From the NCBI RefSeq assembly GCF_002930105.1, contig NZ_PJRN01000009.1, positions 124,001 to 188,000 of the forward strand: a stretch of DNA of 64,000 nucleotides, read 5' to 3'. Position 1 is the first letter of the stretch. Each line of letters opens with the position of its first letter. Both the position numbers and the translations under genes were made by a program. The notes below the pieces were generated by a model. The model did not search any database. It saw only the letters and a program-made list of their open reading frames with translations, and was not told where the DNA came from. This DNA comes from Billgrantia saliphila (lineage in GTDB: Bacteria; Pseudomonadota; Gammaproteobacteria; Pseudomonadales; Halomonadaceae). Of the stretch, positions 15,705 through 29,385 are shown one piece after another.

Positions 15705-16333
15705 GTCGGCTCTACGATATCTCCCAGCCGCTGCGGGCGGGCATGCCGGTATGGCCCGGCGATACCTCCTTCTCGAACGAGCCTACCTGGGTGCTCGGCG
15801 ACAGCTGTCCGGTCAACGTCTCGCGCCTTACGCTCTCCACCCACACCGGTAGCCACGCCGACGCGCCGAGCCACTTCGACGCCGAGGGGCGGGCCATCGA
15901 TGCGGTGGACTTGGCCTGCTACATAGGTCCCTGTGTGCTGCTCGACATGACCCACGCCGGGCCGGTGGTCAAGCCCGAACACCTGTTTCCCGCGCTGCCT
16001 TCACGGGTCGAACGGGTGTTGCTGCGCACCTGGGTGCGCTTCCCTCACGATGAATGGCGCAGCGATTTCACCACGATGGCGGCTGAGAGCATCGACCTGC
16101 TGGCCGAACGCGGTGCTCGACTGATCGGCGTGGACGCTCCCTCGCTCGACCCCGAGGTGGACAGTGCGCTGCTGGCGCATCGGCGAGTGCACCACCACGG
16201 CATGGCGATCCTCGAGGGGCTGGTGCTGGACGCGGTGCCGCCGGGCCATTACGAATTGATCGCGCCGCCGCTGAAGCTCGCCGGCGGCGATGCCGCGCCG
16301 GTGCGTGCCCTGCTGCGTGAGCTGGAACAATAG
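15701..16333 (+). CDS. kynB: Arylformamidase (kynurenine formamidase) KynB
   Basis: A 210-aa metal-dependent hydrolase of the cyclase family that turns N-formylkynurenine into kynurenine and formate. The zinc motif is in LSTHTGSHADAPSHFD (H48, H52, D54, H58), and a second His pair lies in AHRRVHHHGMAILEGL. MSRLYDISQPLRAGMPVWPGD is the usual KynB beginning. The ATG at 15701 overlaps the kynA stop, so the pair is translationally coupled. Kynureninase follows 49 bp later. Confidence 0.95.
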   Translation: MSRLYDISQPLRAGMPVWPGDTSFSNEPTWVLGDSCPVNVSRLTLSTHTGSHADAPSHFDAEGRAIDAVDLACYIGPCVLLDMTHAGPVVKPEHLFPALPSRVERVLLRTWVRFPHDEWRSDFTTMAAESIDLLAERGARLIGVDAPSLDPEVDSALLAHRRVHHHGMAILEGLVLDAVPPGHYELIAPPLKLAGGDAAPVRALLRELEQ

Positions 16334-16382
16334 CCGCGCGAGCTGGATTGATCACCTTTCCCGATCTTCACCGGAGCCGACC

Positions 16383-17639
16383 ATGCCCCTGACTCTCGAT
16401 GACGTCCGCGAGCTGGATCGCCAGGATCCGCTGGCCTCTTTCAAGTCCCGCTTCGCTCTGCCCCAAAGGGTGATCTACCTCGACGGCAACTCCCTGGGCG
16501 CCCAGCCCGCAGCGGCCAGCGAGGCCGTGGAGGCCCTGATGGCGCAGTGGCGCGACGCGCTGATCCAAGGCTGGAACCAGGGCTGGTTCGATGCCCCCGA
16601 GCGGCTCGGCAAGCGGTTGGCGCCGCTGCTCGGGGCCGAGCCTGGGGAGGTGCTGGTCACCGACACCATCACTCATAACCTCTTCAAGCTGCTGGGCTAT
16701 ATCACCGAGGGGCAGGGAAGGGCGCGGCCGGTGATCCTCAGCGAAGGGGGCAATTTCCCCACCGACGGTTACATCGCCCAGGGCTTCAGTCGCTTCGGCG
16801 GTTTCGAACACCGGGTGCTGCCCGAGGGCGAGGAGGTGAGCGAGCACCTGGACCCGCAGGTGGCGGTAGTGGTGCTCAGCCACGTGCACTATCGCACCGG
16901 GCGGTTGCGCGACATGGCGGCGATCACGCGCCAGGTGCACGCCGGCGGCGCCGAGGTCATCTGGGACCTGGCTCACTCGGCCGGCGCCCTGCCCGTCGAT
17001 CTGGCGACCTGCGGTGTGCGCTACGCCGTGGGCTGCACCTACAAGTACCTCAACGGTGGCCCCGGCGCGCCGGCCTTTCTCTATGTGCGGCGCGACTGCC
17101 AGGATCGGGGCTGGCAGCCGCTCTCGGGTTGGCTGGGGCATGCGTCGCCGTTCGCCTTCGAGGCCGACTACGCCCCGGCTTCGGGCATCTCGCGGTTTCG
17201 CACCGGCACGCACTCGCCTCTCGCCTATGCGGCGCTGGAAGCGTCGCTGGCGCTATGGGAGGAGGTGGACCTCGCGCAGCTGCGCAGCAAGAGCCAGCGG
17301 TTGATTGCGCTCTTTCGCGAGTCGCTGGCCATCTGCCTGGATGAGCACGGCATAACGGACATCACGCCGTCCGAGGCGGAGCGGGGCAGCCAGGTCGGGC
17401 TGGTGGCGCCGGACCATGGCTCTTCCACCGCCCCGGACCATGGCTACGCCATCGTCCAGGCGTTGATCGAGCGGGGCGTGATCGGCGATTACCGCGAGCC
17501 GGGGCTGATGCGCTTCGGCTTTGCGCCGCTCTACCTGAGCCATGAGGATGTCTGGCAGGCGGCACAGCACCTGCGCGAGGTGCTGGCCGGGGGTGAGTAC
17601 CTGGCGCCGCGCTTCCAGCGTCGCGGCACCGTGACCTGA
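16383..17639 (+). CDS. kynU: Kynureninase
   Basis: A 418-aa PLP enzyme that splits kynurenine to anthranilate and alanine. It shows YLDGNSLG near the N-terminus, the PLP-binding DLAHSAGALPVDL and the Schiff-base Lys in GCTYKYLNGGPGAPAF (K221), and the C-terminal GLMRFGFAPLYLSHEDVW. The start at 16383 follows a 49-bp gap; the frame is open further upstream without homology. No kynurenine 3-monooxygenase or anthranilate dioxygenase gene is in the window, so the local pathway ends at anthranilate. Confidence 0.95.
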   Translation: MPLTLDDVRELDRQDPLASFKSRFALPQRVIYLDGNSLGAQPAAASEAVEALMAQWRDALIQGWNQGWFDAPERLGKRLAPLLGAEPGEVLVTDTITHNLFKLLGYITEGQGRARPVILSEGGNFPTDGYIAQGFSRFGGFEHRVLPEGEEVSEHLDPQVAVVVLSHVHYRTGRLRDMAAITRQVHAGGAEVIWDLAHSAGALPVDLATCGVRYAVGCTYKYLNGGPGAPAFLYVRRDCQDRGWQPLSGWLGHASPFAFEADYAPASGISRFRTGTHSPLAYAALEASLALWEEVDLAQLRSKSQRLIALFRESLAICLDEHGITDITPSEAERGSQVGLVAPDHGSSTAPDHGYAIVQALIERGVIGDYREPGLMRFGFAPLYLSHEDVWQAAQHLREVLAGGEYLAPRFQRRGTVT

Positions 17640-17677: not shown

Positions 17678-18991
17678 CTAGTTGATCATGCCGGGCAGCC
17701 AGGTAGCGATGCCGGGGAACACGATCAGGATGGCCACCAGCAGCATCGAGCAGAGGATATAGGGAATGGCGGCTGCGTAGATCTCGCGCATGGTGGTGCC
17801 CTGGGGCGCCACGCCCTTCATCACGAACAGCAGCAGCCCCAGCGGCGGGGTGGAGAAGCTGATCTCCAGCGCCAGCAGCATGATGATGCCGAACCAGATG
17901 GGATCGAAGCCGAGCACCTGTGCCAGCGGGAAGAAAAACGGCACCGTCAGCATCATGATCGAAATCTGCTCCATGAAAGTGCCGAGTACCAGCAGTACCG
18001 CGAACATGGCCAGCAGCATCAGGATCGGTGCCAGGTCGAAGCCGGTGGCCCACTGGATCAGCCCGCTCGAGGCGCCGGAGAAGGCCAGCAGCTGACTGAA
18101 GGTGGCCGAGCCGAACACGATCAGGTAGGCCATCAGGGTGACCTTGAGCGCACCGATCACCGAGAGCTTGAACGCTTCCCAGGTCATGCAGCGAAAGATC
18201 ACCGCCAATACGATAGCCCCCAGGGCGCCGAACGCCGCCGCCTCGGAAGGCGTGGCGAAGCCCATCAGCATCAACGCCACGATGAATACCATCACGCTGA
18301 TCATCGGCAGGATGTCGGTGACGACCAGCAGCAGCTTCTGGCCGAGCGGTACCGGCTCGAGTTCGTAGTTGGGCGCCGCACTCGGGTCGAGCCGAGTCTG
18401 GATCCAGATCGTGGCCATGTAGAGCCCCGCCAGCACCAGGCCCGGCATGATGCCGGCGATCAGCAGGGCGCCGATATCGACCTTGGCCAGGGTGGCCAGT
18501 AGCACGGCCAGCGCGGAGGGCGGGATGATAATGGCGAGCCCCCCGGTGCCCAGGATCGGGCCGATGGCCATGCGCTTGTGATAACCGCGGCGCTCCATCT
18601 CGGGGACCAGCAGCGAACCCATCAGCGCGGTCGATCCCATTGACGAGCCGCTCAGGGTGGAGAAGCCGGTGCCGCCCACCACGGTGACGTAGGAGAGCCG
18701 CCCGGGCACCTTGCCCATGAGCTGGTCGATGGCGTTGAACATGCGCATGCCCAGGCCGGTGCGGAAGAACAGCTCACCCATCAGCAGGAAAAGCGGGATC
18801 GGCACCAGGTTGAAGCTGGAGAGCGCGCCGAAGCCGTTGTTGAGCAGCTGGATGAGCCCGTTCTGGCCGCCCATGAAGTGCCAGGCACCGATGACGTTGG
18901 CGGCGAGGAAGGCCAGGGCGATCGGCGTGCCGATGGCCATGAAGCCAAGGATCAGGGCCAGCAGAAAGGCCAGGGCCAGATACCATTCCAT
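17678..18991 (-). CDS. TRAP transporter large permease (DctM) of the LeuCD locus
   Basis: A 437-aa DctM-family protein with about 12 membrane segments. Typical elements are FMAIGTPIALAFLAANVIG near the start, STLSGSSMGSTALMGSLLVPEM, GTGGLAIIIPPSALAVLLA and LEISFSTPPLGLLLFVMKG. The ATG (18989-18991) overlaps the TAA of the small permease by one base, so the two are coupled. It is the last gene of the minus-strand unit leuC-leuD-dctP-dctQ-dctM and converges with kynU 38 bp away. The cargo is unknown; see the binding protein. Confidence 0.9.
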   Translation of the reverse strand: MEWYLALAFLLALILGFMAIGTPIALAFLAANVIGAWHFMGGQNGLIQLLNNGFGALSSFNLVPIPLFLLMGELFFRTGLGMRMFNAIDQLMGKVPGRLSYVTVVGGTGFSTLSGSSMGSTALMGSLLVPEMERRGYHKRMAIGPILGTGGLAIIIPPSALAVLLATLAKVDIGALLIAGIMPGLVLAGLYMATIWIQTRLDPSAAPNYELEPVPLGQKLLLVVTDILPMISVMVFIVALMLMGFATPSEAAAFGALGAIVLAVIFRCMTWEAFKLSVIGALKVTLMAYLIVFGSATFSQLLAFSGASSGLIQWATGFDLAPILMLLAMFAVLLVLGTFMEQISIMMLTVPFFFPLAQVLGFDPIWFGIIMLLALEISFSTPPLGLLLFVMKGVAPQGTTMREIYAAAIPYILCSMLLVAILIVFPGIATWLPGMIN

Positions 18992-19497
18992 TATTCCTTG
19001 ATCCCCGCTTCGCCGCTGTGAAGGATGTCCCGCCCGACCACGAAGCGGGCGAATTCGATGGCCATCATGGAGAAGCACACCGGATAGGCGACGGTGAGGA
19101 TCCACTTCGGCACGAAGAAGGCGCGCACGTCGTAATCGCTGCGCGCCAGGTTCATCGACACCAGGTCATAACCCTTCCACGCCAGTACCGCGCACACCGC
19201 CACGCACAGCAGGGCGACCAGGCGGCTCAGCACCTGCAGGGCCGGCGGCGGCAACAGCGAGGTGAGCAGTTCGATATGCACGTGGCCCTTGTGCCTGACC
19301 AGCCAGGGCGCGCCGAGCAGGGTCAGGTAGAACATGGCGTACTCGGTGGAGAGGAAGAACCACGCCGAGGGCTGCAGGCCCAGGTTGCGGATCACCACGG
19401 AAACCACGATGGCGACCATCAGCCACACCAGCATGATGGCGGCCATCAGGGCCATGCCGTTGAGCAACAGCCGATAAGCACGACTCGCGAAATGCAT
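18991..19497 (-). CDS. TRAP transporter small permease (DctQ)
   Basis: A 168-aa four-helix membrane protein of the DctQ family with GAPWLVRHKGHVHIELLTSLLPP after the second segment and KWILTVAYPVCFSMMAIEFARF at the end. I chose the ATG at 19497, but a GTG 33 bp upstream in frame is possible; neither has a strong ribosome site. It sits 77 bp after dctP and overlaps dctM by one base. Confidence 0.85.
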   Translation of the reverse strand: MHFASRAYRLLLNGMALMAAIMLVWLMVAIVVSVVIRNLGLQPSAWFFLSTEYAMFYLTLLGAPWLVRHKGHVHIELLTSLLPPPALQVLSRLVALLCVAVCAVLAWKGYDLVSMNLARSDYDVRAFFVPKWILTVAYPVCFSMMAIEFARFVVGRDILHSGEAGIKE

Positions 19498-19574
19498 AGG
19501 AGTACCCGGACGCGGAGGGAATGGTTGCACGCGGCGAAATCAGGGACCGGCCGCTCGGGTCGGCCCCGCGACAC

Positions 19575-20576
19575 TTACAGATCGTTGAACTTCTCGATCA
19601 GCTCGTCGTAATGCTCCAGGCCCGTGGGATGCCGCTCCATCTGGCTGCGCATGCGCTCCCAGGTGGCTTCGCGGGCGGCTTCGGAGAAGCGCTCGCCGGC
19701 CTCGCCCTCCAGGCGGAAGACCTGCATGCCGTCGGCCTCGAGTTCGGCCTGCTGCTCCTCGGCCAGTACCTCGAAGCGCTCGGCACTTTCGCGCTCGTGC
19801 TCGATGGCAACTTCCTGCAGGAGCTCGCGTGCCTCCTCGCTGAGGCCGTTCCAGCTGTCCAGGTTGACGATCACGCCCATGTCGGTGGAGAAGAAGGCGG
19901 GGTCGATGCGGTAGTTGAGGAAGCGATCCCAGTTGAGGTCCTTCAGGCCGATCTGGGTCCAGCCAGTGGCGTTGACCACGTTGCGCTCAAGCGCTGAATA
20001 GACGTCGGTCGTCGGCAGGCTGATCGGCTGGGCGCCGAGGTAGTCCTGGAAGAAGGCGTCGTAGACCGGGTTGCTGCGCAGGGTCAGGCCCGAGACGCTG
20101 AGGTTGCCTTCGCCGTCCAGCTGGGGTTCGTCGATGGTGTAGAGGTTGTAACTGACGCCGCTGTCGAACCAGCCCAGATAGTAGACGCCCATCTTGTCCT
20201 GATGGATCTGGTTGAGCAGATCGATGCCACCGTTCTCGCGGGCGAAGATGGCGTTGGTGTTGGATGCCACCATGGCGTCGCGCTCGGGCACGGTACCGGC
20301 GTAGAAGCTCGCCGCGGTGTAGGCCATGTCGACAACGCCATTGCGTACGGCGTCCGGCTGTTCGGAAAGGCCGATGACCTCGGGGCCGCCGCGCACGTCG
20401 ATCTGCACCACGCCTTCGCCGCGCTCGTTCACCTTGTCGACGAACTCGAGAAAGCTCTGGGTATAGATCAGCGACGGCGGAAAGGCGTGAACGGCACTGA
20501 TGCGGTCGACGGCCAATGCCTGGCCGGAGACCATGAGGGCGGCCAGGCCGAGAGAGGCGATGAGAGGTTTGTTCAT
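19575..20576 (-). CDS. TRAP transporter substrate-binding protein (DctP)
   Basis: A 333-aa periplasmic protein with a Sec signal peptide (1-22, IASLGLAALMVSGQALA). The DctP fold follows: the run VVQIDVRGGPEVIGLSEQPDAVRNGVVDMAYTAASFY in the first lobe, LTLRSNPVYDAFFQDYLGAQPISLPTTDVYSALERNVVNATGW in the ligand region. The 'LRSNP..' position holds the Arg that usually grips a carboxylate, so the ligand is expected to be an organic acid. GGAG precedes the start. It follows leuD by 72 bp in one transcript. By context the ligand is the substrate of the locus. Confidence 0.9.
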   Translation of the reverse strand: MNKPLIASLGLAALMVSGQALAVDRISAVHAFPPSLIYTQSFLEFVDKVNERGEGVVQIDVRGGPEVIGLSEQPDAVRNGVVDMAYTAASFYAGTVPERDAMVASNTNAIFARENGGIDLLNQIHQDKMGVYYLGWFDSGVSYNLYTIDEPQLDGEGNLSVSGLTLRSNPVYDAFFQDYLGAQPISLPTTDVYSALERNVVNATGWTQIGLKDLNWDRFLNYRIDPAFFSTDMGVIVNLDSWNGLSEEARELLQEVAIEHERESAERFEVLAEEQQAELEADGMQVFRLEGEAGERFSEAAREATWERMRSQMERHPTGLEHYDELIEKFNDL

Positions 20577-20648
20577 GATTGTTCTCCTTGTGACAGCGGG
20601 TAGTCGTGTTGTGGCTTGTTATGAACCCCTTAGGGCGGTTATCGGGCT

Positions 20649-21281
20649 TCAGCCCCGCGAGATGACCTCCGGTGGCGTCGTGTCCAGCCAAGGGCGCCGT
20701 TCGGCATAGTCGGCGGCGAAGCGGCGGATTCTCTCCGCGTGCTGCCGGGTCATGTCGATGTCGTCCCAGCCGTTGAGCAGCTTGGTGCGCCAGGTCGGGG
20801 CGATGGAGAAGGCCACGCTCAGCTCGCCGGCTTCGATGCGCTGGGCTTCCAGGTCGACGCGCAGCGGGCCGGGAGTATCGCTCAGGGCCGTTAGCAGGGC
20901 TTCGGCATCCTCCTCGCTGACCGTGGCAGGCAGCAGGCCGTTATTGACCGCATTGGAGGCGAAGATGTCGCCGAAGCTCGGCGCGATCACGCAGCGAAAG
21001 CCGTAATCCACCAGGGCGTAGACCGCCGCCTCCCGCGACGAGCCGCCGCCGAAGTTGCGTCGCGCCACCAGGACTTTCGCCTGATCGGCCTGGGGGCGGT
21101 TGAGGATGAAGCCCTCGACAGGCCGGCCGCTCGCGTCGTGGCGAAGGTCATGGAGCAGGAACTGGCCGTAGCCGACGCTGCGCGGTTCCTTCATGAAGCG
21201 GGCCGGGATCAACTGATCGGTATCCACGTTGGCCAGCGGCAGCGGACAGGCGAGGGCGTCGAGAATCTTGATCGGTTCCAT
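20649..21281 (-). CDS. LeuD-type hydro-lyase small subunit, likely catabolic paralog
   Basis: A 210-aa swivel-domain protein of the LeuD/aconitase-D family, forming the active site with the LeuC-type subunit. It has PLPLANVDTDQLIPARFMK at the N-terminus and the core NFGGGSSREAAVYALVDYGFRCVIAPSFGDIFASNAVNNGLLP. Biosynthetic LeuD normally reads NFGCGSSREHAPWAL at this point, so Cys, His and Pro-Trp are replaced by Gly, Ala and Val-Tyr. Together with co-transcription with a TRAP importer, and the absence of leuA or leuB, this argues for a hydratase acting on another unsaturated dicarboxylate (maleate, citraconate or dimethylmaleate type). ATG 21281 has AGGAG upstream. Confidence 0.85.
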   Translation of the reverse strand: MEPIKILDALACPLPLANVDTDQLIPARFMKEPRSVGYGQFLLHDLRHDASGRPVEGFILNRPQADQAKVLVARRNFGGGSSREAAVYALVDYGFRCVIAPSFGDIFASNAVNNGLLPATVSEEDAEALLTALSDTPGPLRVDLEAQRIEAGELSVAFSIAPTWRTKLLNGWDDIDMTRQHAERIRRFAADYAERRPWLDTTPPEVISRG

Positions 21282-21294
21282 CACACGGCTCCTG

Positions 21295-22692
21295 TCACAG
21301 CTCGCGCACGTCGGCCAGGCGACCGGCCACGGCCGCCGCGGCCACCATGACCGGCGACATCAGGTGGGTCCTGGCGCCAGGTCCCTGGCGGCCCTTGAAG
21401 TTGCGGTTGGTGGTGGAGGCGCAGCGTTCGCCGGCCGCCACCAGGTCGCCGTTCATGCCTACGCACATGGAGCAGCCGGATTCGCGCCACTCCAGCCCCG
21501 CCTCGCGAAAGACGACGTCGAGCCCTTCGGCTTCCGCCTGTCGCTTCACCTGGGTGGAACCCGGCGAGACGATGCCCGGCACCTGGCTGCGACGACCGCG
21601 CAGCACCGCGGCGGCGGCGCGAAGATCCTCCAGGCGGGCGTTGGTACAGGAGCCGATGAAGATGCGGTCGATGACGATGTCGGTCAGCTTCTGGCCGGGG
21701 GCGAGGCCCATGTAGTCGAGGCTGTCGCGTACCTGACGGGCGCGGGCGGCGTCCTGGACCTGCGCCGGATCGGGCACCTGGCCGTCGATGGGCAGCGCCT
21801 CCTCGGGCGAGACGCCCCAGGTCACGGTGGGGGCGATCTCCGCAGCGTCCAGCGTCACTTCGCTGTCGAACCGGGCGTCGGCGTCGCTCTGCAGCGTCTT
21901 CCAGTAGGCCAGCGCCTGCTCCCAGCGTTCACCCCGGGGGGCGAAGGGGCGACTGCGCAGGTAGGCGAAGGTGGTTTCGTCGGGAGCGACCATGCCGCAG
22001 CGGGCGCCGCCTTCGATGGAGAGGTTGCACAGCGTCAGGCGTGCCTCCATGGAGAGGCCGCGGATGGCGCTGCCGGCGTACTCGATGGCATAGCCACGAG
22101 CGCCGTCGGCACCCAGTCGCGCGATCCAGGTCAGGGCGATGTCCTTGGCACCGATGCCCGGGGGCAGCTCACCCTCCACGCTCAGGCGCATTCTCTTCGG
22201 ACGGCTCTGCCACAGCGTCTGGGTGGCCAGCACGTGGGCGACCTCCGAGGCGCCGATGCCGAAGGCGATGCTGCCGAAGGCGCCGTGGGTCGAGGTGTGG
22301 CTGTCGCCGCAAACCATCAGCAGCCCGGGCTGGGTCAGCCCCTGCTCGGGGCCGAGCACATGGACGATGCCCTGGCGCGGGTCGTCGAGGCCGAACAGGG
22401 TGATGCCGTGCTCGTGCGTGTTGCCTTCGAGCTGTTCGATCATGCCGCGCACCTTGGCGTCGCCGATGGCGTCGAGGCGGCGGGTCAGGGTCGGCACATA
22501 GTGGTCGGCGATGCCGAAGGTCAGGTCGGGGCGGGCCACCGACAGCGAGCGTTCGCGCAGTTTGTTAAAGGCGTGAAAGGAACCTTCGTGCACGAAGTGC
22601 CGGTCGATCCACAGCAGGCTCTGGCCGCTCTCGCCGCGAAGGATCTCGTGGGCATCCCATACCTTGTCGAACAGGGTCGTTGGCATTGTCAT
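21295..22692 (-). CDS. LeuC-type hydro-lyase large subunit, likely catabolic paralog
   Basis: A 465-aa aconitase-superfamily subunit of LeuC length. The 4Fe-4S ligands are visible as C349 (FIGSCTNARLEDL) and C407/C410 (ESGCSMCVGMN). CGDSHTSTHGAFGSIAFGIGASEVAHVLATQTL is the usual substrate/cluster region. The family adds water to, or removes it from, 2-alkyl malates and maleates. It starts the minus arm of the GntR-controlled locus, 13 bp before leuD. Automatic annotation as 3-isopropylmalate dehydratase is expected, but the context is catabolic. The start may also be the ATG two codons later. Confidence 0.87.
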   Translation of the reverse strand: MTMPTTLFDKVWDAHEILRGESGQSLLWIDRHFVHEGSFHAFNKLRERSLSVARPDLTFGIADHYVPTLTRRLDAIGDAKVRGMIEQLEGNTHEHGITLFGLDDPRQGIVHVLGPEQGLTQPGLLMVCGDSHTSTHGAFGSIAFGIGASEVAHVLATQTLWQSRPKRMRLSVEGELPPGIGAKDIALTWIARLGADGARGYAIEYAGSAIRGLSMEARLTLCNLSIEGGARCGMVAPDETTFAYLRSRPFAPRGERWEQALAYWKTLQSDADARFDSEVTLDAAEIAPTVTWGVSPEEALPIDGQVPDPAQVQDAARARQVRDSLDYMGLAPGQKLTDIVIDRIFIGSCTNARLEDLRAAAAVLRGRRSQVPGIVSPGSTQVKRQAEAEGLDVVFREAGLEWRESGCSMCVGMNGDLVAAGERCASTTNRNFKGRQGPGARTHLMSPVMVAAAAVAGRLADVREL

Positions 22693-22742
22693 GTCGGTCG
22701 CTTACCGAGGCTGCATCACCCGAGAACGCCGGAGCGTTCCTC

Positions 22743-22827
22743 GTATCGTCTTGATACAACTATCGCAGAGTGGTGAACAGGTCAAATGTATTTTATTGAC
22801 TTTTTTAAATGTTATAAAAATAGGACA
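22743..22827. promoter_or_regulatory. leuC-side control region between leuC and the GntR gene
   Basis: This AT-rich stretch lies upstream of leuC on the minus strand. GTATC-N5-GATAC (22743-22757) is a perfect inverted repeat about 50 bp before the leuC start. AAATGTATT (22784-22792) and ATAGGACA (22820-22827) recur in the promoter of the plus-strand arm (23745-23753 and 23758-23765). The shared boxes are candidate sites for the GntR regulator. Confidence 0.45.
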
Positions 22828-22861
22828 ACTGTTCTTCTCTTTCACCCTTTTCCCCGCCGAC

Positions 22862-23677
22862 TCATGCCTCCTGGCTTTCCCTTTCCCTATGGTGCGGCTC
22901 CGGCGCCATCGGCTCCCAGTAGCGGGCCGCCTCGTCGCCGGTGCGGTTGAGGTCGATCTGGATGCGGTAGCGGTCGGGACGGTAGAGCGCATCGAGGTGT
23001 TCCACGCCGCGTCCCTCCTCGTCGTACACCACGCGGGTCAGGGCGATCAGCGGCGAGCCTACCGAGACGTCGAGCGCCTCGGCCACCTCGTGGGTGGCCA
23101 GAGTGGCCGAGATGGTCTGGGCCGCATGATCGACCTTCACGCCGCTGCGCTCGAGCAGGGCGAACAGCGGGGTCTGCGAAAGGTCCGCCTCGTTGTAGTG
23201 CAGGGCGATATATTCCGGCACGTGGGTCACCAGGTAGGAGAACGGCTTGTCGTCGGCCATGCGCACGCGAATCGAGCGCTGCACGCGCTCGCCGTCGCGC
23301 AGCCCCAGGCTCTCGCGCACCGGCTCCGGCGGCTTGACGTAGCAGAACTCCAGCAGCCGCACCCGCGAGGCCTTGCTCATCTTGACCATGTTGGGCAGCA
23401 GGTTGGCGACGCTGGCGGTCATCACCGTGGCGTCCAGCGGCTGCTCCAGCACCACGGTGCCGAGCCCCGGCTTGCGCGCCACCAGGCCCGCCTCGTCGAG
23501 CGCCTGCATGGCGCGCCTGACCGTGACCCGCGACACGCCATACTGCTCCGCCAGCTTCAGCTCGCCGGGTAGCTTGCGTCCTGGCGCCAGCCGGCCGCTG
23601 AGGATTGCATCCTTGAGCAGCAGGTAGATGCGGTGGGACTTGGTGCCGCCCACGGAATTCGCATGCGTATCGTTCAT
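22862..23677 (-). CDS. GntR family regulator with UTRA domain (HutC type)
   Basis: A 271-aa regulator: a winged HTH (about 15-85, LPGELKLAEQYGVSRVTVRRAMQALDEAGLVARKPGLGTVV) and a UTRA effector domain (about 105-260) with SIRVRMADDKPFSYLVTHVPEYIA and GSPLIALTRVVYDEEGRGVEHLDALYRPDRYRI. HutC-type proteins sense pathway intermediates. It lies between the two divergent arms of the locus, co-directional with leuC and 157 bp from the plus arm, so it is the natural regulator of both. The ATG at 23677 has an AAGGA site; the open frame extends upstream without one. Confidence 0.88.
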   Translation of the reverse strand: MNDTHANSVGGTKSHRIYLLLKDAILSGRLAPGRKLPGELKLAEQYGVSRVTVRRAMQALDEAGLVARKPGLGTVVLEQPLDATVMTASVANLLPNMVKMSKASRVRLLEFCYVKPPEPVRESLGLRDGERVQRSIRVRMADDKPFSYLVTHVPEYIALHYNEADLSQTPLFALLERSGVKVDHAAQTISATLATHEVAEALDVSVGSPLIALTRVVYDEEGRGVEHLDALYRPDRYRIQIDLNRTGDEAARYWEPMAPEPHHRERESQEA

Positions 23678-23717
23678 CGTGCTGTCCTTGGTCTTGTTGC
23701 TAATCATGGTGAAGCGC

Positions 23718-23765
23718 TTGACGCGATGCATGAAGTAGACATAGAAATGTATTATGCATAGGACA
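23718..23765 (+). promoter_or_regulatory. Promoter/operator region of the plus-strand arm
   Basis: TTGACG (23718-23723) is a possible -35 element. AAATGTATT (23745-23753) and ATAGGACA (23758-23765) are identical to boxes upstream of leuC. ATGCAT occurs twice, at 23726-23731 and 23754-23759. ACAT-AGAA-ATGT forms a short inverted repeat that overlaps the first box. These mark a likely GntR-controlled promoter about 70-115 bp before the tautomerase start. Confidence 0.4.
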
Positions 23766-23834
23766 GCTTTGTGTGCCATGCAATTCGAAGAATAGCGCCA
23801 TACAACGACAAAGGCTTCCTTGGAGAACGCTTTC

Positions 23835-24410
23835 ATGCCTGTCATTCAGGTCAGCCTGATCCGCGGCTACTCCGCCGAACTCAAACAGCGTCTCTGCGCG
23901 CGCCTCACCGATGCCGTGCGTCGCAGCATCGCCGCGGATCCGGATGGCATCACCGTACTGCTGCACGAAGTGGAGCCCGACGCCTACATGCGCGGCGGCC
24001 AACCGCGAACGCCGGGGAAGGCCGCTACCGACGAGGCGCCGGGCACGGCTCCCGAGGAGGTGGTGCGCGACTTCCTCGACGCCATGGAGGGGCGTGACCT
24101 TCCACGCGCCGAACGCCTGCTCGACGACAGTTTTTCCATGGTTTTCCCCGGCAGCGGCGAGATGACCCGGCTGGTCGATCTGGTGGCCTGGACCGGCGAA
24201 CGCTACCGCTTCGTGCGCAAGCGCATCGCCGGATTCGACAGCTTCGCCGAGGGCGAGCGGGCGACGGTGGTGTGCCATGGCGAACTCGACGGCGAGTGGC
24301 CCGACGGGACGCCCTTCGCCGGCGTGCGTTTCATCGATCGCTTCGAGCTGCACTGCGACAGGATCGTTCGGCAGCAGGTCTGGAACGACCTGGCGCTGGC
24401 TCGGCGCTGA
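23835..24410 (+). CDS. Fusion of 4-oxalocrotonate tautomerase-like and SnoaL-like domains
   Basis: A 191-aa protein with two parts. Residues 1-62 (MPVIQVSLIRGYSAELKQRLCARLTDAVRRSIAADPDGITVLLHEV) look like a tautomerase monomer: processing of Met-1 would expose the catalytic Pro, and the beta-alpha-beta pattern fits. Residues about 75-190 (EEVVRDFLDAMEGRDLPRAERLLDDSFSMVFPGSGEMTRL) look like a SnoaL/NTF2-fold domain. ATG 23835 was chosen because it places Pro next to Met and has GGAG upstream. It opens the plus-strand arm. A role in moving or isomerising a double bond of an unsaturated intermediate is inferred. Confidence 0.7.
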   Translation: MPVIQVSLIRGYSAELKQRLCARLTDAVRRSIAADPDGITVLLHEVEPDAYMRGGQPRTPGKAATDEAPGTAPEEVVRDFLDAMEGRDLPRAERLLDDSFSMVFPGSGEMTRLVDLVAWTGERYRFVRKRIAGFDSFAEGERATVVCHGELDGEWPDGTPFAGVRFIDRFELHCDRIVRQQVWNDLALARR

Positions 24411-24466
24411 ACCGTGCGTCACGCCGCTTTTCCTGATTTCACTTTCTACCGAGGACCTTTAACGCC

Positions 24467-25342
24467 ATGACTCTTCCTGCCATCGATCTGAAGGCCAGGC
24501 TGCACGCCCCCGAGATCGTCGTGGCGCCGGGCGTCTACGACGCCCTGAGCGCCTCGCTCGCCGCCGATGCCGGCTTCGATACCGTCTATCTCTCCGGGGC
24601 CAGCATCGCCTATACCCAGCTCGGCCGCCCTGACATCGGCCTGGTCAGCGTGAGCGAGGTCAACGACGTGATGTCGCACATCCGCGAGCGTACCGAGCTA
24701 TCGGTGGTGGTCGACGGTGACACCGGCTTCGGCAACGCCATGAATGTGATGCGCAGCGTACGCATGCTGGAGCGCGCGGGGGCCAACGCCATCCAGCTGG
24801 AGGACCAGACCTATCCCAAGCGCTGTGGCCACTTGCGCGGCAAGACCCTGGTACCCGAAGGCGAGATGGTGGGAAAGCTCAAGGCCGCCCTTGATGCCCG
24901 CGAGAGCGACTCGACCCTGATTATCGGCCGCACCGACGCGGTGGCGGTGGAGGGCACCGAGCGGGCCATCGAGCGCGCCCGCGCCTACCGCGAGGCCGGC
25001 GTCGACATGCTGTTCATCGAGGGCATTCGCAGCGACGCTGACATTTCCCGCATCATGGCCGAATTCCGCGGCGAGATCCCGATCATGGCCAACATGGTGG
25101 AGGGAGGCGACACGCCGCTGCAGAACGCCCGGGCGCTGCAGGAACTGGGTTTCTCGCTGGTGATCTTCCCCGGCGCCCTGGTGCGCGCCTTCACGCACAT
25201 GGCGGGCCAATTCTTCGACATCCTGCGTCGCGACGGCTCTACCGACGCCTTCCGCGAGCGCATGCTCGACTTCGGTCAGCTCAACGAGGTGCTGGGTACC
25301 CGCAAGATGCTCGAGCTGGGCGAGAAGTACGACGGCCGCTGA
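24467..25342 (+). CDS. Isocitrate lyase/PEP mutase family C-C lyase (2,3-dimethylmalate lyase-like)
   Basis: A 291-aa TIM-barrel enzyme of the ICL/PEPM superfamily. Metal ligands are in DGDTGFGNAMNV (D83, D85). The lyase signature KRCGH (118-122) carries the catalytic Cys120 in a flexible loop, followed by LRGKTLVPEGEM. Members with this Cys cleave 2-hydroxy acids (isocitrate, methylisocitrate, 2,3-dimethylmalate), while the oxaloacetate decarboxylase branch lacks it. Methylisocitrate lyase would normally sit beside prpC, which is absent. Next to a LeuCD-type hydratase the likely job is to split an alkyl-malate to pyruvate plus a carboxylate. It lies 56 bp after the tautomerase gene. Confidence 0.85.
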   Translation: MTLPAIDLKARLHAPEIVVAPGVYDALSASLAADAGFDTVYLSGASIAYTQLGRPDIGLVSVSEVNDVMSHIRERTELSVVVDGDTGFGNAMNVMRSVRMLERAGANAIQLEDQTYPKRCGHLRGKTLVPEGEMVGKLKAALDARESDSTLIIGRTDAVAVEGTERAIERARAYREAGVDMLFIEGIRSDADISRIMAEFRGEIPIMANMVEGGDTPLQNARALQELGFSLVIFPGALVRAFTHMAGQFFDILRRDGSTDAFRERMLDFGQLNEVLGTRKMLELGEKYDGR

Positions 25343-25383
25343 CGCTCAGGACAACGACAGGCACAACGACAAGGAGAGAGCGC

Positions 25384-26058
25384 ATGATCACGACCGACAA
25401 GACCGCCAAGGAGATCTTCCACGAGGTGATGGCCAACCCCCAGCGTGTGCCGTTCGGCTTCGGCCGCAAGGCGGTGCTGGTCAACGTCGATCCGCAGAAG
25501 GCCTACACCCGCACCGATCTCTACAAGACCGCCTACGAGACCGACCCCAACCAGCTCGAGTACGTCAACCAGCTGGCACGCGGCTTCCGCCGGCTCGGCT
25601 GGCCGGTGGTATGGACCCATGTGGCCTTCCTCGACTCCGCCGAGGATGCCGGTATATGGGGCACGCGCACCGACACCCCCGACTCGCTGCAGAACATCAA
25701 GTACGGCTCCGATCGCGCCGCCTTCGACGAGCGGGTGGAGATTGACCCGCGCGACGTCGTCTACACCAAGCGCATGCCCTCGGCCTTCTTCGAGACCCCG
25801 CTGCAGTCGCTGCTGGTATGGCACCAGGTCGATACCGTGATCGTTACCGGCGGTTCCACCTCCGGCTGCATCCGCGCCACCGCAGTGGACAGCCTGTCGC
25901 GGGGCTATCGCACCATCGTGCCGATGGAGTGCGTGGCCGACAAGCACGAGAGCTACCATTACGCCAACCTCACCGACCTGCACCTGAAGTACGCCGACGT
26001 GCTGAACGTGGCCGATGTGCTGGCCTGGCTCGAGACGCGCGCGGCCGAGCAGGCCTGA
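25384..26058 (+). CDS. Isochorismatase-family amidohydrolase (maleamate amidase-like)
   Basis: A 224-aa cysteine hydrolase. The D-K-C triad is visible: D36 in LVNVDPQKAYT, K129 in VYTKRMPSAFFET and C162 in VTGGSTSGCIRATAVD with the preceding cis-peptide. The long form with the N-terminal helix and 'PSAFFETPL' resembles N-carbamoylsarcosine amidase and NicF maleamate amidase more than nicotinamidase. Expected chemistry is removal of ammonia from a half-amide. AAGGAGAG supports the start. It sits between the C-C lyase and two cyclic amide hydrolases, which would produce its half-amide substrate. Confidence 0.85.
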   Translation: MITTDKTAKEIFHEVMANPQRVPFGFGRKAVLVNVDPQKAYTRTDLYKTAYETDPNQLEYVNQLARGFRRLGWPVVWTHVAFLDSAEDAGIWGTRTDTPDSLQNIKYGSDRAAFDERVEIDPRDVVYTKRMPSAFFETPLQSLLVWHQVDTVIVTGGSTSGCIRATAVDSLSRGYRTIVPMECVADKHESYHYANLTDLHLKYADVLNVADVLAWLETRAAEQA

Positions 26059-26075
26059 GCGGCGAGGAGGCCGAT

Positions 26076-27026
26076 ATGAAAGAACGACTGGACGCCTACG
26101 ACTACTGGCCCTACGAGAACCGGCCGAAGATCACCTGGCCGAACGGGGCCCGGGTGGCCTTCTGGGTGGCCCCCAACATCGAGTACTACGAGCTCGACCC
26201 GCCGGCCAATCCGCAGCGCAAGCCGTGGCCCACGCCACATCCCTCGGTGCCGGGCTTCAGCATTCGCGACTACGGCAACCGGGTCGGACACCAGCGCCAG
26301 ATGGCGCTGCTCGACAAGTATGGCATCCGCGGTTCGGTATCGCTCTCGGTGGCACTGTGCGAGCACCACCCCGACATCATCGCGATGTGCCGTGAGCGTG
26401 ACTGGGAGTTCTTCAGCCACGGCATCTACAACACCCGCTACACCTACGGCCTGAGCGAAGCCCAGGAACGGGAGATGATCCGCGACGGCATCGAGACGAT
26501 CCATCGCCATACCTGGCAGAAGTGCGCTGGCTACCTTGCGCCGGCGCTGTCCCACTCGGAGCGCACGCTCGACCTCTTCGCCGAAGTGGGCCAGGACTTG
26601 TTCGGCGAGGAGGGCGGCATCTACACCTGCGACCTGTTCCACGACGACCAGCCCACGCCGATCCGCCTGCGTTCGGGGCGCCGCTTCATCTCCATGCCCT
26701 ATTCCCTGGAGATGAATGACACCATCGTCTATGCGGTGAACAAGGTGGAGCCGCGCCACTACCTGACCATGCTCAAGCGCCACTTCGACCGGCTCTACGC
26801 CGAGGGCGCCGAGTCGGGCACGGTGATGTGCATTCCTACCCACAACTACCAGATCAGCTGCCCGCACCGCATCAAGGCCTTCGAGGAGGCGCTGGAATAC
26901 ATCACCGGCCACAGCGACGTATGGGTCGCCACCGGCCGCGAGATCGCCCAGCACTATCTTTCTCACCACTACGATGACGCCCTGCATGACATCGACGCCA
27001 AGGCCGCCATGGCAGGGAGGAGCTGA
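26076..27026 (+). CDS. Polysaccharide-deacetylase-fold hydrolase, PuuE/cyclic imide hydrolase type (copy 1)
   Basis: A 316-aa protein of the NodB-like fold, PuuE branch. It shows WPNGARVAFWVAPNIEYYEL, FSIRDYGNRVGHQRQMALLDKYGIRGSVSLSVALCEHHPDI, EFFSHGIYNTRYTYGL and GYLAPALSHSERTLDLFAEVG. Branch members include allantoinase PuuE and, as I recall, a Pseudomonas cyclic imide hydrolase; they open cyclic amides and are not true polysaccharide enzymes. No signal peptide is seen, so it is cytoplasmic. GAGGAGG at 26064-26070 fixes the start at 26076, although the frame is open upstream. It is paired with copy 2, two bases away. Confidence 0.83.
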   Translation: MKERLDAYDYWPYENRPKITWPNGARVAFWVAPNIEYYELDPPANPQRKPWPTPHPSVPGFSIRDYGNRVGHQRQMALLDKYGIRGSVSLSVALCEHHPDIIAMCRERDWEFFSHGIYNTRYTYGLSEAQEREMIRDGIETIHRHTWQKCAGYLAPALSHSERTLDLFAEVGQDLFGEEGGIYTCDLFHDDQPTPIRLRSGRRFISMPYSLEMNDTIVYAVNKVEPRHYLTMLKRHFDRLYAEGAESGTVMCIPTHNYQISCPHRIKAFEEALEYITGHSDVWVATGREIAQHYLSHHYDDALHDIDAKAAMAGRS

Positions 27027-27028
27027 GC

Positions 27029-27961
27029 ATGTCCCTCGAACCGGAGTACCTGACCTACCCCTTGCGGCGCCACGGCTACGACCACGAGCGTTACGCCTGG
27101 TCGATGCTCGGCGACCGCCCGCCGCTCCGCTGGCCCGGCGACAAGCCGTTGGCGGTGTGGATCAACGTGTCGCTGCAGTTCTACCCGCTCAATCAGCGCG
27201 GCGTGCCCTTCAAGGTGCCCAACGGTATGACCATGCCATACCCGGACCTGCGCCACTACTCACTGCGCGACTACGGCAATCGGGTGGGTATCTATCGCAT
27301 GCTCGCGGCCTTCGCGCAGCGCGGCGTTCGACCCACCTGGGCGATCAGCGCCCAGCTCGCCGAGCAGACCCCCTACCTGCTGCAGCGCCTCAAGGCCTAC
27401 GGCGGCGAGTTCCTGTGCCACGGCTGGAACATGGATCACCTGCACTACGGCGGCCAGGACCGCGACGAGGAGGCGGAGATCGTGCGCCGCTCGGTGAGCA
27501 CCCTGCGCGAGCTGACCGGCCAGCCCGTGCGCGGCTGGCTGAGCCCGGCCAAGCACCAGAGCTGGAACACCCCGGAGCTGCTGGCCGAGAACGGCATCGA
27601 GTACTGCTGCGACTGGGTCAACGACGATCTGCCCTACCCCTTCTCCACCGAGCAGGGCGCGCTGACCATGATGCCGCTTTCCACCGAGATCGAGGATCAA
27701 TTCGTGATGTGCCAGAACCTGCACTCGGAGGAGAGCTGGGCGACCCAGGTGAGGGACGCCTTCGACTACCTGCTGCAGGAGGGGCGGGAGCAGGGCGGCC
27801 GGCTGCTGGCGCTCAACCTGCACCCCTGGCTCGTGGGCCAGCCCCATCGCATCGGCTGCCTGGAGGCGGTGCTCGACCATATCGTGGGGCATGCCGAAGT
27901 GTGGCAGGCCCCGGCGGGTGAGATTCTCGACGCCTACCGGGCCCAGACCGTTAACGACTGA
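27029..27961 (+). CDS. Polysaccharide-deacetylase-fold hydrolase, PuuE/cyclic imide hydrolase type (copy 2)
   Basis: A 310-aa relative of the preceding protein, sharing RDYGNRVG and the overall plan but clearly diverged. It has EFLCHGWNMDHLHYGG, GWLSPAKHQSWNTPELLAENGIEYCCDWVNDDLPYPF and LLALNLHPWLVGQPHRIGCLEAVLDHI, which match PuuE-type allantoinases better than copy 1 does. It starts 2 bp after the copy 1 stop. The pair could form a heteromeric enzyme or act on two related rings. No allantoin or ureide genes are nearby. Confidence 0.83.
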   Translation: MSLEPEYLTYPLRRHGYDHERYAWSMLGDRPPLRWPGDKPLAVWINVSLQFYPLNQRGVPFKVPNGMTMPYPDLRHYSLRDYGNRVGIYRMLAAFAQRGVRPTWAISAQLAEQTPYLLQRLKAYGGEFLCHGWNMDHLHYGGQDRDEEAEIVRRSVSTLRELTGQPVRGWLSPAKHQSWNTPELLAENGIEYCCDWVNDDLPYPFSTEQGALTMMPLSTEIEDQFVMCQNLHSEESWATQVRDAFDYLLQEGREQGGRLLALNLHPWLVGQPHRIGCLEAVLDHIVGHAEVWQAPAGEILDAYRAQTVND

Positions 27962-27972
27962 GGAGAGACGTC

Positions 27973-29385
27973 ATGCCTATCGTGGCCTTTGGTAGCGGTG
28001 AGGCGTTCGAGGCGCATGTGCCGCTGGTGATCGTCGGGGCGGGCGCCTGCGGCCTGGTGGCGGCGCTTGCTGCCAAGGGGGCCGGCATGGACTCGGTAGT
28101 GCTGGAGCGCGATGCGCTGCCACGGGGCAGCACCTCCATGTCCCAGGGCTTCATCCCGGCGGCGGGGACGCGCTTCCAGAAAGAGGCGAGTGTCGAGGAC
28201 AGCCCCGAACTGATGGCCGAGGACATACAGCGCAAGAACGGCCACCAGGCCGACCCGGCCATCGTGCGCGCGCTGACCGAGGCCTCCGCCGGCGTGGTGG
28301 AGTGGCTGGCCGACGCCCACGGCGTGCCCTTCGATCTGGTGGAGGGCTTTCTCTACCCGGGGCACAGTCGCATGCGCATGCACGCCACGCCGCGGCGCAC
28401 CGGGGAAGAACTGATGGGCAGCCTGATGAATGCCATGGAGGCGGCGGGCATCGACCTGCTCACCGAGGCCCGCGTGATCGACCTGCACGTCGATGATGCC
28501 GGCCGGGTGGGGGGCGTGACGCTCGAGCGTCCCGACGGCAGCCGGGAGTCCATCGGTTGCGACGCCCTGATACTCGCCTGCAACGGCTACGGCGGAAATC
28601 CCGAGTTGGTGGCGCGTTACTTGCCGACCCTGAAGAATGCCCTCTACTTCGGCCACGAAGGCAACCAGGGGGACGCCTTGCTCTGGGGCGAGGCCATAGG
28701 CGCCAGCATGAAGGACCTGGGCGCCTGCCAGGGCCACGGCTCGCTGGCGATGCCGCACCAGACCCTGATCACCTGGGCGGTGATGATGCGCGGCGGCGTA
28801 CAGGTCAACATTGAGGGGCGACGCTTCTCCAACGAGCACGGCGGGTACTCGGAGCAGGCGGCCAAGGTGCTGGCCCAGCCGGACGGTATCGCCTGGAACC
28901 TGTTCGACCGGCGCATCCACCAGGCTGCGCTGGAATTCGAGGACTACCGCAACGCCCATATCGCGGGTGCGGTGCGCACCTTCGACAGCCTCGAATCCAT
29001 GGCTGTAACGCTGGCATTGCCGTTGGAGGCCCTGAGGGCGACTTTCGCCGAGATGCATGTCCTGGCCGAGAGCGGTGAGGCCGACGCCTTCGGGCGGCGT
29101 TTCAAGGCCTCGGATATGCTGGAGGCGCCCTTTCATGCGATCAGGGTCACCGGCGCGCTGTTTCATACCCAGGGCGGGCTCGAGGTGGACACCCAGGCGC
29201 GGGTACTGCGGCGTGATGGCTCTATATTCCCGAACCTGTTTGCCGCCGGCGGCGCGGCCCGGGGCGTTTCCGGCTCGGGTGACAGCGGCTATCTCTCAGG
29301 CAACGGCTTGCTGAGTGCCGTGGTGCTGGGGGCCATTGCGGGGCGAGAGGCCGCCCGCCAGCTTGGCTGCGACTCGGCCGCCTGA
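27973..29385 (+). CDS. FAD-dependent oxidoreductase (fumarate reductase/KstD flavoprotein family)
   Basis: A 470-aa flavoprotein with the dinucleotide motif VIVGAGACGLVAALAAKGAG (about 19-38), SMSQGFIPAAGTRFQKE, a capping domain in the middle and the C-terminal FAD segment FPNLFAAGGAARGVSGSGDSGYLSGNGLLSAVVLGAIAGREAA. The family reduces or desaturates C=C bonds next to carbonyls or carboxylates (fumarate reductase, ketosteroid dehydrogenase, tricarballylate dehydrogenase). No signal peptide or heme motif is seen. It is the last gene of the plus arm, 11 bp after the second hydrolase. A desaturase of a succinimide-type ring, or an ene-reductase, would fit the locus; the direction is unknown. Confidence 0.85.
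   Translation: MPIVAFGSGEAFEAHVPLVIVGAGACGLVAALAAKGAGMDSVVLERDALPRGSTSMSQGFIPAAGTRFQKEASVEDSPELMAEDIQRKNGHQADPAIVRALTEASAGVVEWLADAHGVPFDLVEGFLYPGHSRMRMHATPRRTGEELMGSLMNAMEAAGIDLLTEARVIDLHVDDAGRVGGVTLERPDGSRESIGCDALILACNGYGGNPELVARYLPTLKNALYFGHEGNQGDALLWGEAIGASMKDLGACQGHGSLAMPHQTLITWAVMMRGGVQVNIEGRRFSNEHGGYSEQAAKVLAQPDGIAWNLFDRRIHQAALEFEDYRNAHIAGAVRTFDSLESMAVTLALPLEALRATFAEMHVLAESGEADAFGRRFKASDMLEAPFHAIRVTGALFHTQGGLEVDTQARVLRRDGSIFPNLFAAGGAARGVSGSGDSGYLSGNGLLSAVVLGAIAGREAARQLGCDSAA

Follow-up and report, generated by a model that had tools for sequence, protein, structure and literature searches.

A conserved, apparently undescribed gene cluster of Billgrantia saliphila with paired PuuE-type proteins, probably serving the use of an acidic cyclic imide

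The gene cluster described here lies in a stretch of 64,000 nucleotides from Billgrantia saliphila (assembly GCF_002930105.1, contig NZ_PJRN01000009.1, positions 124,001 to 188,000 of the forward strand), which is referred to below as the window. Twelve genes were identified in the 17678-29385 region of the window from the listing of open reading frames (ORFs) and from family scans (Pfam, NCBIfam). The minus-strand half consists of gntR, leuC, leuD, dctP, dctQ and dctM, the last three encoding a tripartite ATP-independent periplasmic (TRAP) importer. The plus-strand half consists of the genes of a tautomerase-SnoaL protein, an isocitrate lyase (ICL) family lyase, an isochorismatase-family amidase (isoA), two PuuE-type proteins (PuuE1 and PuuE2) and a flavin adenine dinucleotide (FAD) oxidoreductase (Table 1). 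According to the ORF coordinates, isoA and PuuE1 are separated by 17 bp, PuuE1 and PuuE2 by 2 bp, PuuE2 and the FAD enzyme by 11 bp. The initial annotation of this DNA had proposed the same inventory, and each of its parts was found by the ORF listing and the scans, including DctP, DctQ and DctM together, a lyase with the K118-R-C-G-H motif and an amidase with an intact D-K-C triad. The tautomerase part of the suggested tautomerase-SnoaL fusion, in which a Pro stands directly after the Met, could clearly be recognized, and the SnoaL_2 part was weak (26.8 bits vs a cut-off of 27).

Table 1. Genes and putative control elements of the cluster (window coordinates)
Feature	Position	Strand	Evidence
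DctM, TRAP importer large membrane subunit	17678..18991	-	PF06808 E 5e-73; in 29/29 family loci
DctQ, TRAP importer small membrane subunit	18991..19530	-	PF04290 E 1.1e-20
DctP, TRAP solute-binding protein	19575..20576	-	PF03480 E 9e-27; nearest solved chain 4mnc, E 4.6e-47
LeuD-type hydratase small subunit, divergent REAAVY motif	20649..21281	-	TIGR00171 181 bits, cut-off 116
LeuC-type hydratase large subunit	21295..22692	-	TIGR00170 658 bits, cut-off 560
Operator-like element AWAATACATTT, upstream of leuC	22784..22794	-	one of two genome sites; core kept in 12/12
GntR/UTRA regulator	22862..23677	-	PF00392, PF07702
Operator-like element AWAATACATTT, between gntR and the plus-strand genes	23745..23755	-	second genome site; kept in 10/12
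4-Oxalocrotonate-tautomerase-like domain and SnoaL-like domain	23835..24410	+	PF01361 E 3.2e-11; in 24/29 family loci
ICL/phosphoenolpyruvate (PEP)-mutase superfamily lyase, KRCGH at 24818-24832	24467..25342	+	PF13714 E 8e-47
isoA, isochorismatase-family amidase, D36-K129-C162	25384..26058	+	PF00857 E 4e-29; alignments
PuuE1, PuuE-type ring-opening hydrolase, likely catalytic subunit	26076..27026	+	3cl6 (PuuE allantoinase) E 1e-23; conserved residues
PuuE2, paired PuuE-type protein	27029..27961	+	1z7a E 1e-29; co-occurs with PuuE1
FAD oxidoreductase, fumarate-reductase/ketosteroid-dehydrogenase superfamily	27973..29385	+	TIGR01813 261.6 bits, below the cut-off of 285.45

The conservation of the cluster was followed in the family by searching 201 genomes with PuuE1, 82 of which had a match at E ≤1e-20. 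In 30 of these genomes, the window's own included, the match was at least 83% identical, and the other 29 loci were fetched. LeuC, LeuD, the lyase, isoA, PuuE1, PuuE2, the FAD enzyme, DctM, DctP and GntR were detected by tblastn in all 29 loci; the tautomerase is not always present (24 of 29). The PuuE1 proteins of Billgrantia ethanolica and B. pellis showed 95-96% identity to that of the window. As controls, we chose 14 loci from the 52 family genomes with weaker PuuE1 matches only (PuuE paralogues). At E 1e-5, isoA, LeuCD, the ICL lyase, the FAD enzyme, the tautomerase, DctQ and GntR could not be detected in any of the 14, and distant relatives of DctM (32-36%) and of DctP were seen in four and two of them, respectively. 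At the thresholds of the main tblastn count, an HMG-CoA (3-hydroxy-3-methylglutaryl-CoA) lyase (HMGL) was present in none and a CoA-transferase in one of the control loci. All gene counts per locus were taken from tblastn with thresholds that were fixed after viewing the first locus results and were then kept unchanged. Some of the queries came from loci L071, L073, L075, L076, L101 and L116, which match by construction; L071-L074 and L121 were also compared with the window proteins alone as queries. In the g11 loci the outer neighbours of the window were absent and the cluster set was retained, thus the boundaries at 17678 and 29385 are genuine. The grouping goes beyond chance and forms a real unit: the assumption that these genes belong together and occur together outside this strain agrees with the set found in 29/29 family loci vs the catabolic genes in 0/14 controls.

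Immediately upstream of dctM (14832-17639) there are a tryptophan dioxygenase gene, a kynB-like cyclase-family gene and an ORF which was named kynU-like by reading the ORF listing. A link to tryptophan breakdown was considered and rejected; kynU was seen in just 5 of 26 cluster loci and was therefore not counted as a member of the cluster.

In order to describe the distribution beyond the family, three collections were used. A profile search of a genome-contig collection gave 578 PuuE1 relatives, the best 80 of which were kept; this set leans to close relatives, and 8 of its loci are also among the family loci and 1 is also in the phylum-wide sample. The triad of isoA, PuuE1 and PuuE2 was found in 79 of the best 80, mostly in Proteobacteria and Bacteroidota. 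Counted separately, PuuE1 and PuuE2 were each present in 80, isoA in 79, LeuC in 43, the ICL lyase in 31, HMGL in 24, a CoA-transferase III in 23, the FAD enzyme in 22, the TRAP importer in 20 and the tautomerase in 14 of these loci. When the 20 TRAP loci were set aside, 38 full-length loci were left, with LeuCD in 22, an ICL or HMGL lyase in 26 and LeuCD together with a lyase in 19. The lyase was of the HMGL type in 22 and of the ICL type in 8 of them (18 had HMGL alone, 4 had ICL alone and 4 had both). LeuCD, HMGL and CoA-transferase occurred without the ICL lyase in 14 full-length loci, including marine Flavobacteriaceae, where the gene order in L116 is HMGL, LeuCD, CMD, CaiB, DUF4440, isoA, PuuE1, PuuE2, SBF symporter, SDR. 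A phylum-wide sample of 398 genomes contained 11 with a PuuE1 match at 1e-50, and the 8 loci outside the family carried PuuE2 (7), isoA (5), HMGL (2), the ICL lyase (2), the FAD enzyme (1) and LeuCD (1). Among plasmids, 37 records had a PuuE1 match at 1e-40; in the 9 examined, the PuuE pair was present in all, isoA in 6, LeuCD in 4, the ICL lyase in 3 and the FAD enzyme in 3. The triad is widespread but sparse, and LeuCD is frequent chiefly in the nearer relatives.

In both Burkholderia plantarii and Rhizobium rhizoryzae, a plasmid carries the triad, LeuCD, the ICL lyase and the FAD enzyme in different gene orders. Their identities to the window proteins are 51 and 54% for the FAD enzyme, 53 and 37% for the lyase, 40 and 59% for LeuC, respectively, and the R. 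rhizoryzae cluster comes with an ATP-binding cassette importer of the branched-chain type. An Acidiphilium plasmid encodes CaiB, HMGL, the triad, LeuCD and an FAD enzyme 54% identical to that of the window, and Sphingomonas JE1 has HMGL, CaiB, two LeuCD pairs and the ICL lyase. In the Salipiger abyssi plasmid (L075:5854-9321) the neighbourhood of the triad includes nadA, nadC and a gene of L-aspartate oxidase, and in Variovorax (L077:6694-8449) an ICL/PEP-mutase gene adjoins hemP and a repressor gene at a distance of 4-6 kb from the PuuE pair, possibly by chance. One representative each of the neighbour families f16, f23, f25, f34 and f35 gave no Pfam match at 1e-5; f16, f34 and f35 (L139:5408-6136, L124:11999-12691, L121:18091-19056) are repeatedly found close to the triad, chiefly in Gammaproteobacteria.

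Both PuuE proteins remain far below the NCBIfam PuuE equivalog cut-off of 424.6 bits (PuuE1 111, PuuE2 128 bits). In the sets used for residue conservation, from which hits with a stop or with ≤75% query coverage were excluded, 12 of the 13 checked PuuE-superfamily residues of PuuE1 were invariant in 126/126 homologues, and E36 was kept in 125/126. Asn119, which stands four residues after His115 in all 126, occupies the position of the second His in metal-binding members. According to PMC3084791, HpPgdA binds metal and PuuE does not. PuuE2 keeps most of the superfamily residues and has Gln at position 50 where PuuE1 has Glu; in a set of 138 sequences, including 14 control paralogues, this position was Gln in 97 and Glu in 36. 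Since the two genes are only 2 bp apart and occur together nearly throughout (29/29 family loci, 80/80 of the best contig loci), a heteromeric, two-subunit ring-opening enzyme is possible. A published precedent for an imide-opening function is HxnM of Aspergillus nidulans, a member of the same superfamily as PuuE, for which the opening of a cyclic imide, piperidine-2,6-dione, was proposed from mutant metabolites and which is 64% identical to a cyclic imide hydrolase of Pseudomonas putida (PMC9304392).

The residues D36, K129 and C162 of isoA were invariant in an alignment of seq­uences from seven proteins and conserved to at least 95% in 120 homologues. In the 17 distant loci (8 of the phylum sample, 9 plasmids) isoA was missing six times, and in five of these six another amide hydrolase is encoded near the PuuE pair: an amidase adjoining the pair in L167 (a locus which stops at the contig end, 13638 bases), an amidase one gene further away in L076, an asparaginase and a distant isochorismatase-fold protein adjoining the pair in L078 and L077, respectively, and a gamma-glutamyltranspeptidase on the opposite strand in L169. 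In L168 no other amide hydrolase was identified near the pair. These replacements support the amidase role suggested in the initial annotation.

The cluster LeuC and LeuD pass the isopropylmalate dehydratase cut-offs (658 vs 560 and 181 vs 116 bits). A second leuCD is present elsewhere in the genome, the LeuD of which scores 273 bits and reads REHAPW, whereas the cluster LeuD reads REAAVY; at position 85 of LeuD, 76 homologues have Ala (48), Gln (17), His (10) or Gly (1). The two LeuC proteins are 55% identical. Because of this second copy with REHAPW, the cluster LeuCD is not the leucine-pathway copy. Likewise, the lyase (278-279 bits) stays below the PrpB cut-off of 354, and the real PrpB of 420 bits is encoded elsewhere, thus the two enzymes are separate. 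The lyase is about equally close to methylisocitrate lyase (190 bits) and to the petal death protein (187 bits), its NMVEGG motif resembling NMIEGG of the latter and not NLTEFG of the former. K118, C120, G121, H122, D56, D83 and D85 were each conserved to at least 95% in 70 homologues. A hydroxylated dicarboxylate would be a suitable substrate both for an ICL lyase working on the free acid and for a CoA-transferase together with an HMGL lyase working on the thioester, and the type of the lyase varies as if serving one hydroxy-acid product.

The FAD enzyme is flavocytochrome-c-like, and its TIGR01813 score of 261.6 bits is under the cut-off of 285.45. In the alignment with Shewanella Fcc3, the residues R402, E378, R381, H504 and R544, key fumarate-reductase residues for holding and protonating the dicarboxylate, are replaced by Y292, W268, M271, F397 and Y440; H365 and T377 correspond to H255 and T267, and H398 of the FAD enzyme aligns with the residue after Fcc3 H504. 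Y292, F397, Y440, H255 and W268 were conserved to at least 95% in 53 homologues, mostly from the TRAP-type cluster, and the tyrosine pair presumably recalls the ketosteroid dehydrogenases. A plain fumarate reductase could be rejected, the key residues being lost. Since these residues are replaced, a step on the ring is suggested for this enzyme, which may act on a carbonyl-bearing ring and not on the free diacid. The initial annotation had rightly noted the FAD oxidoreductase and the tautomerase as present and had given a pathway step to neither of them.

In DctP, R167 aligns with an Arg of 4mnc, which was reportedly solved with benzoylformate. The TRAP importer and this Arg suggest a carboxylate substrate, and so haematinic acid fits better than the neutral alkylmaleimides. 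The element AWAATACATTT occurs at two sites in the whole 4.34 Mb genome, at 22784 and 23745, flanking gntR. The motif was chosen after viewing the two regions, and a rough chance estimate is about 0.1 match per genome, thus its absence elsewhere adds little and its conservation is the better evidence: the leuC-side element was kept in 12/12 and the other in 10/12 aligned sequences, the remaining two being shorter from extraction. The GntR/UTRA regulator may control both halves of the cluster through these two elements.

Gene content and linkage are what was observed, and from them we infer the reactions, their order and the substrate. The pathway reading of the initial annotation is supported in part. 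The cluster probably serves to import and degrade an acidic cyclic imide, the likeliest candidate being a succinimide or maleimide with a substituted five-membered ring. The TRAP importer would take up the anionic imide, the FAD enzyme would adjust the saturation of the ring C-C bond beside the carbonyl, and the PuuE1/PuuE2 pair, perhaps as one heteromeric enzyme, would open the imide to a half-amide. The isochorismatase-type amidase would then convert the half-amide into ammonia and a substituted cis-dicarboxylate, LeuCD would hydrate this to a malate of the 2-alkyl type, and the ICL-family lyase would cleave the malate to a carboxylate and a 2-oxo acid, which would be pyruvate in the case of a methyl substituent. 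The fact that LeuD, the lyase and the PuuE proteins each differ from the known equivalogs was counted in favour of this scheme, and its hydration and cleavage half is credited mainly because such lyases recur with LeuCD. Several observations weigh against it. Neither LeuCD nor a lyase was found within 20 kb in 9 of the 38 full-length non-TRAP loci, and LeuCD was present in just one of the eight phylum-sample loci outside the family, which means that the triad serves other pathways too. The four loci with both lyase types indicate that ICL and HMGL are not strict alternatives. In L164 (9531-10469), a PuuE1 relative stands with isoA about 2.8 kb away, and no PuuE2 was detected by five queries in the fetched 20 kb. 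Furthermore, PuuE1 is nearer to PuuE allantoinase (E 1e-23) than to 3qbu (E 5e-6), the closest structure to HxnM according to PMC9304392.

In an alternative reading, a six-membered glutarimide, formed from a pyridine carboxylate of the isonicotinate kind, would be opened and deamidated to a tricarboxylate, and LeuCD and the lyase would act as on aconitate and (methyl)isocitrate. Such a route would be compatible with the equal distance of the lyase from methylisocitrate lyase and the petal death protein and with the substrate proposed for HxnM, piperidine-2,6-dione (PMC9304392). It also has a parallel in the Arthrobacter crystallopoietes plasmid (L078:9228-15821), where molybdenum hydroxylase genes are followed by the PuuE pair and then the asparaginase, and where tcuA is located some 12 kb upstream of the pair; this arrangement resembles a form of the same module that leads from a pyridine to a glutarimide. 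However, no molybdenum hydroxylase of the window cluster was found by family scans, the residues which hold and protonate the dicarboxylate in fumarate reductase are missing from the FAD enzyme, and the lyase has NMVEGG and not NLTEFG; for the window cluster we regard this route as unlikely. No paper on an isonicotinate gene cluster was among the matches listed in a search of open PubMed Central (PMC) papers.

The opening of a hydantoin or ureide by the PuuE pair, followed by removal of the carbamoyl group by the isochorismatase-type enzyme, appears less likely still. PuuE itself is an allantoinase, and isoA also resembles N-carbamoyl amidohydrolases, its nearest solved relatives including N-carbamoylsarcosine amidohydrolase 1nba and 3uao (labelled putative isochorismatase). 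Two genes of the Asp/Glu/hydantoin racemase family in the R. rhizoryzae cluster and an NCS1 permease gene beside the PuuE pair in L167 are compatible with hydantoin-like substrates as well, and these similarities likewise speak against an imide. Such a route would, however, not account for LeuCD and the lyase, since none of the twelve window genes matched an aminotransferase or ammonia-lyase family, and the PuuE scores are far under the equivalog cut-off. Finally, LeuCD might simply be a leucine-pathway pair that happens to adjoin transporter and hydrolase genes unrelated to it. This would explain why LeuC and LeuD pass the isopropylmalate dehydratase cut-offs, but it is very improbable and was already disfavoured by the second leuCD with REHAPW and the higher-scoring LeuD (273 vs 181 bits), and by the fact that LeuCD accompanies the triad in several lineages.

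Within the five-membered imide reading, a dedicated route mineralising the maleimides that chlorophyll and haem leave behind, namely haematinic acid, methylethylmaleimide and methylvinylmaleimide, is an attractive but tentative suggestion which we consider doubtful. In such a route an exocyclic double bond would be shifted into the ring by the tautomerase in those clusters that have it, the two-subunit PuuE imidase, the amidase and LeuCD would follow, and either the ICL lyase or the CoA-transferase/HMG-CoA-lyase pair would yield pyruvate and a second acid, glutarate in case of haematinic acid. If true, this module would be distributed among marine and soil members of the Proteobacteria and Bacteroidota. 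PMC7318184 reports haematinic acid in leaves in quantities similar to the dipyrrolic products and states that alkylmaleimides were not detected, which argues against alkylmaleimides as substrates. Since haematinic acid should give glutarate, it weighs against this substrate that no glutarate hydroxylase of the CsiD type was found in the genome (other glutarate routes were not tested). Riboflavin catabolism was also considered and dropped, as the main text of PMC12746152 mentions neither isochorismatase nor polysaccharide deacetylase, and neither isopropylmalate, isocitrate lyase nor allantoinase.

The literature search gave no description of such an operon and no bacterial gene set for the use of pigment-derived imides among the matches listed, which came from open PMC papers. 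The module is real and conserved, and it appears to be undescribed. Among the natural end products of pigment breakdown are some cyclic imides, and the triad would be a genetic marker for imide use, the paired PuuE proteins suggesting a two-subunit ring-opening enzyme. If confirmed, the scheme would give a function to genes which are named polysaccharide deacetylase, isopropylmalate dehydratase and isocitrate lyase/PEP mutase family on the plasmid records.

Parts of the predicted pathway can be compared with known systems. The maleamate amidase NicF of nicotinate degradation shares with isoA the isochorismatase fold, the D-K-C triad and the amide of a cis-dicarboxylate as likely substrate, but its sequence is distant and its neighbour genes are others. 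In nicotinate fermentation, DmdAB (2,3-dimethylmaleate hydratase) and 2,3-dimethylmalate lyase form a similar succession of a two-subunit hydratase of the aconitase family and an ICL-family lyase; in the window, the diacid would derive from an imide, and the family scans of the twelve genes gave no enamidase, mutase or methylitaconate isomerase. The petal death protein, a 2-alkylmalate lyase, is likewise a member of the ICL superfamily with KCGH (KRCGH in the lyase) and NMxEGG, whereas the cluster lyase is bacterial and lies in an imide-type gene cluster. PuuE allantoinase has the fold family and, in pairwise alignments, the N-x-E, HG, D...DD, PY...ND and H elements in common with the window proteins, which however are far under its equivalog cut-off, paired, and accompanied by an amidase and LeuCD. 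A parallel in the order of the reactions is the microbial cyclic imide route with the P. putida YZ-26 imidase and A. nidulans HxnM/HxnN (PMC9304392), where ring opening by a polysaccharide-deacetylase/PuuE-superfamily enzyme is followed by amide hydrolysis, the window cluster differing from it in having two paired PuuE proteins, an isochorismatase-fold amidase and a clustered hydratase and C-C lyase.

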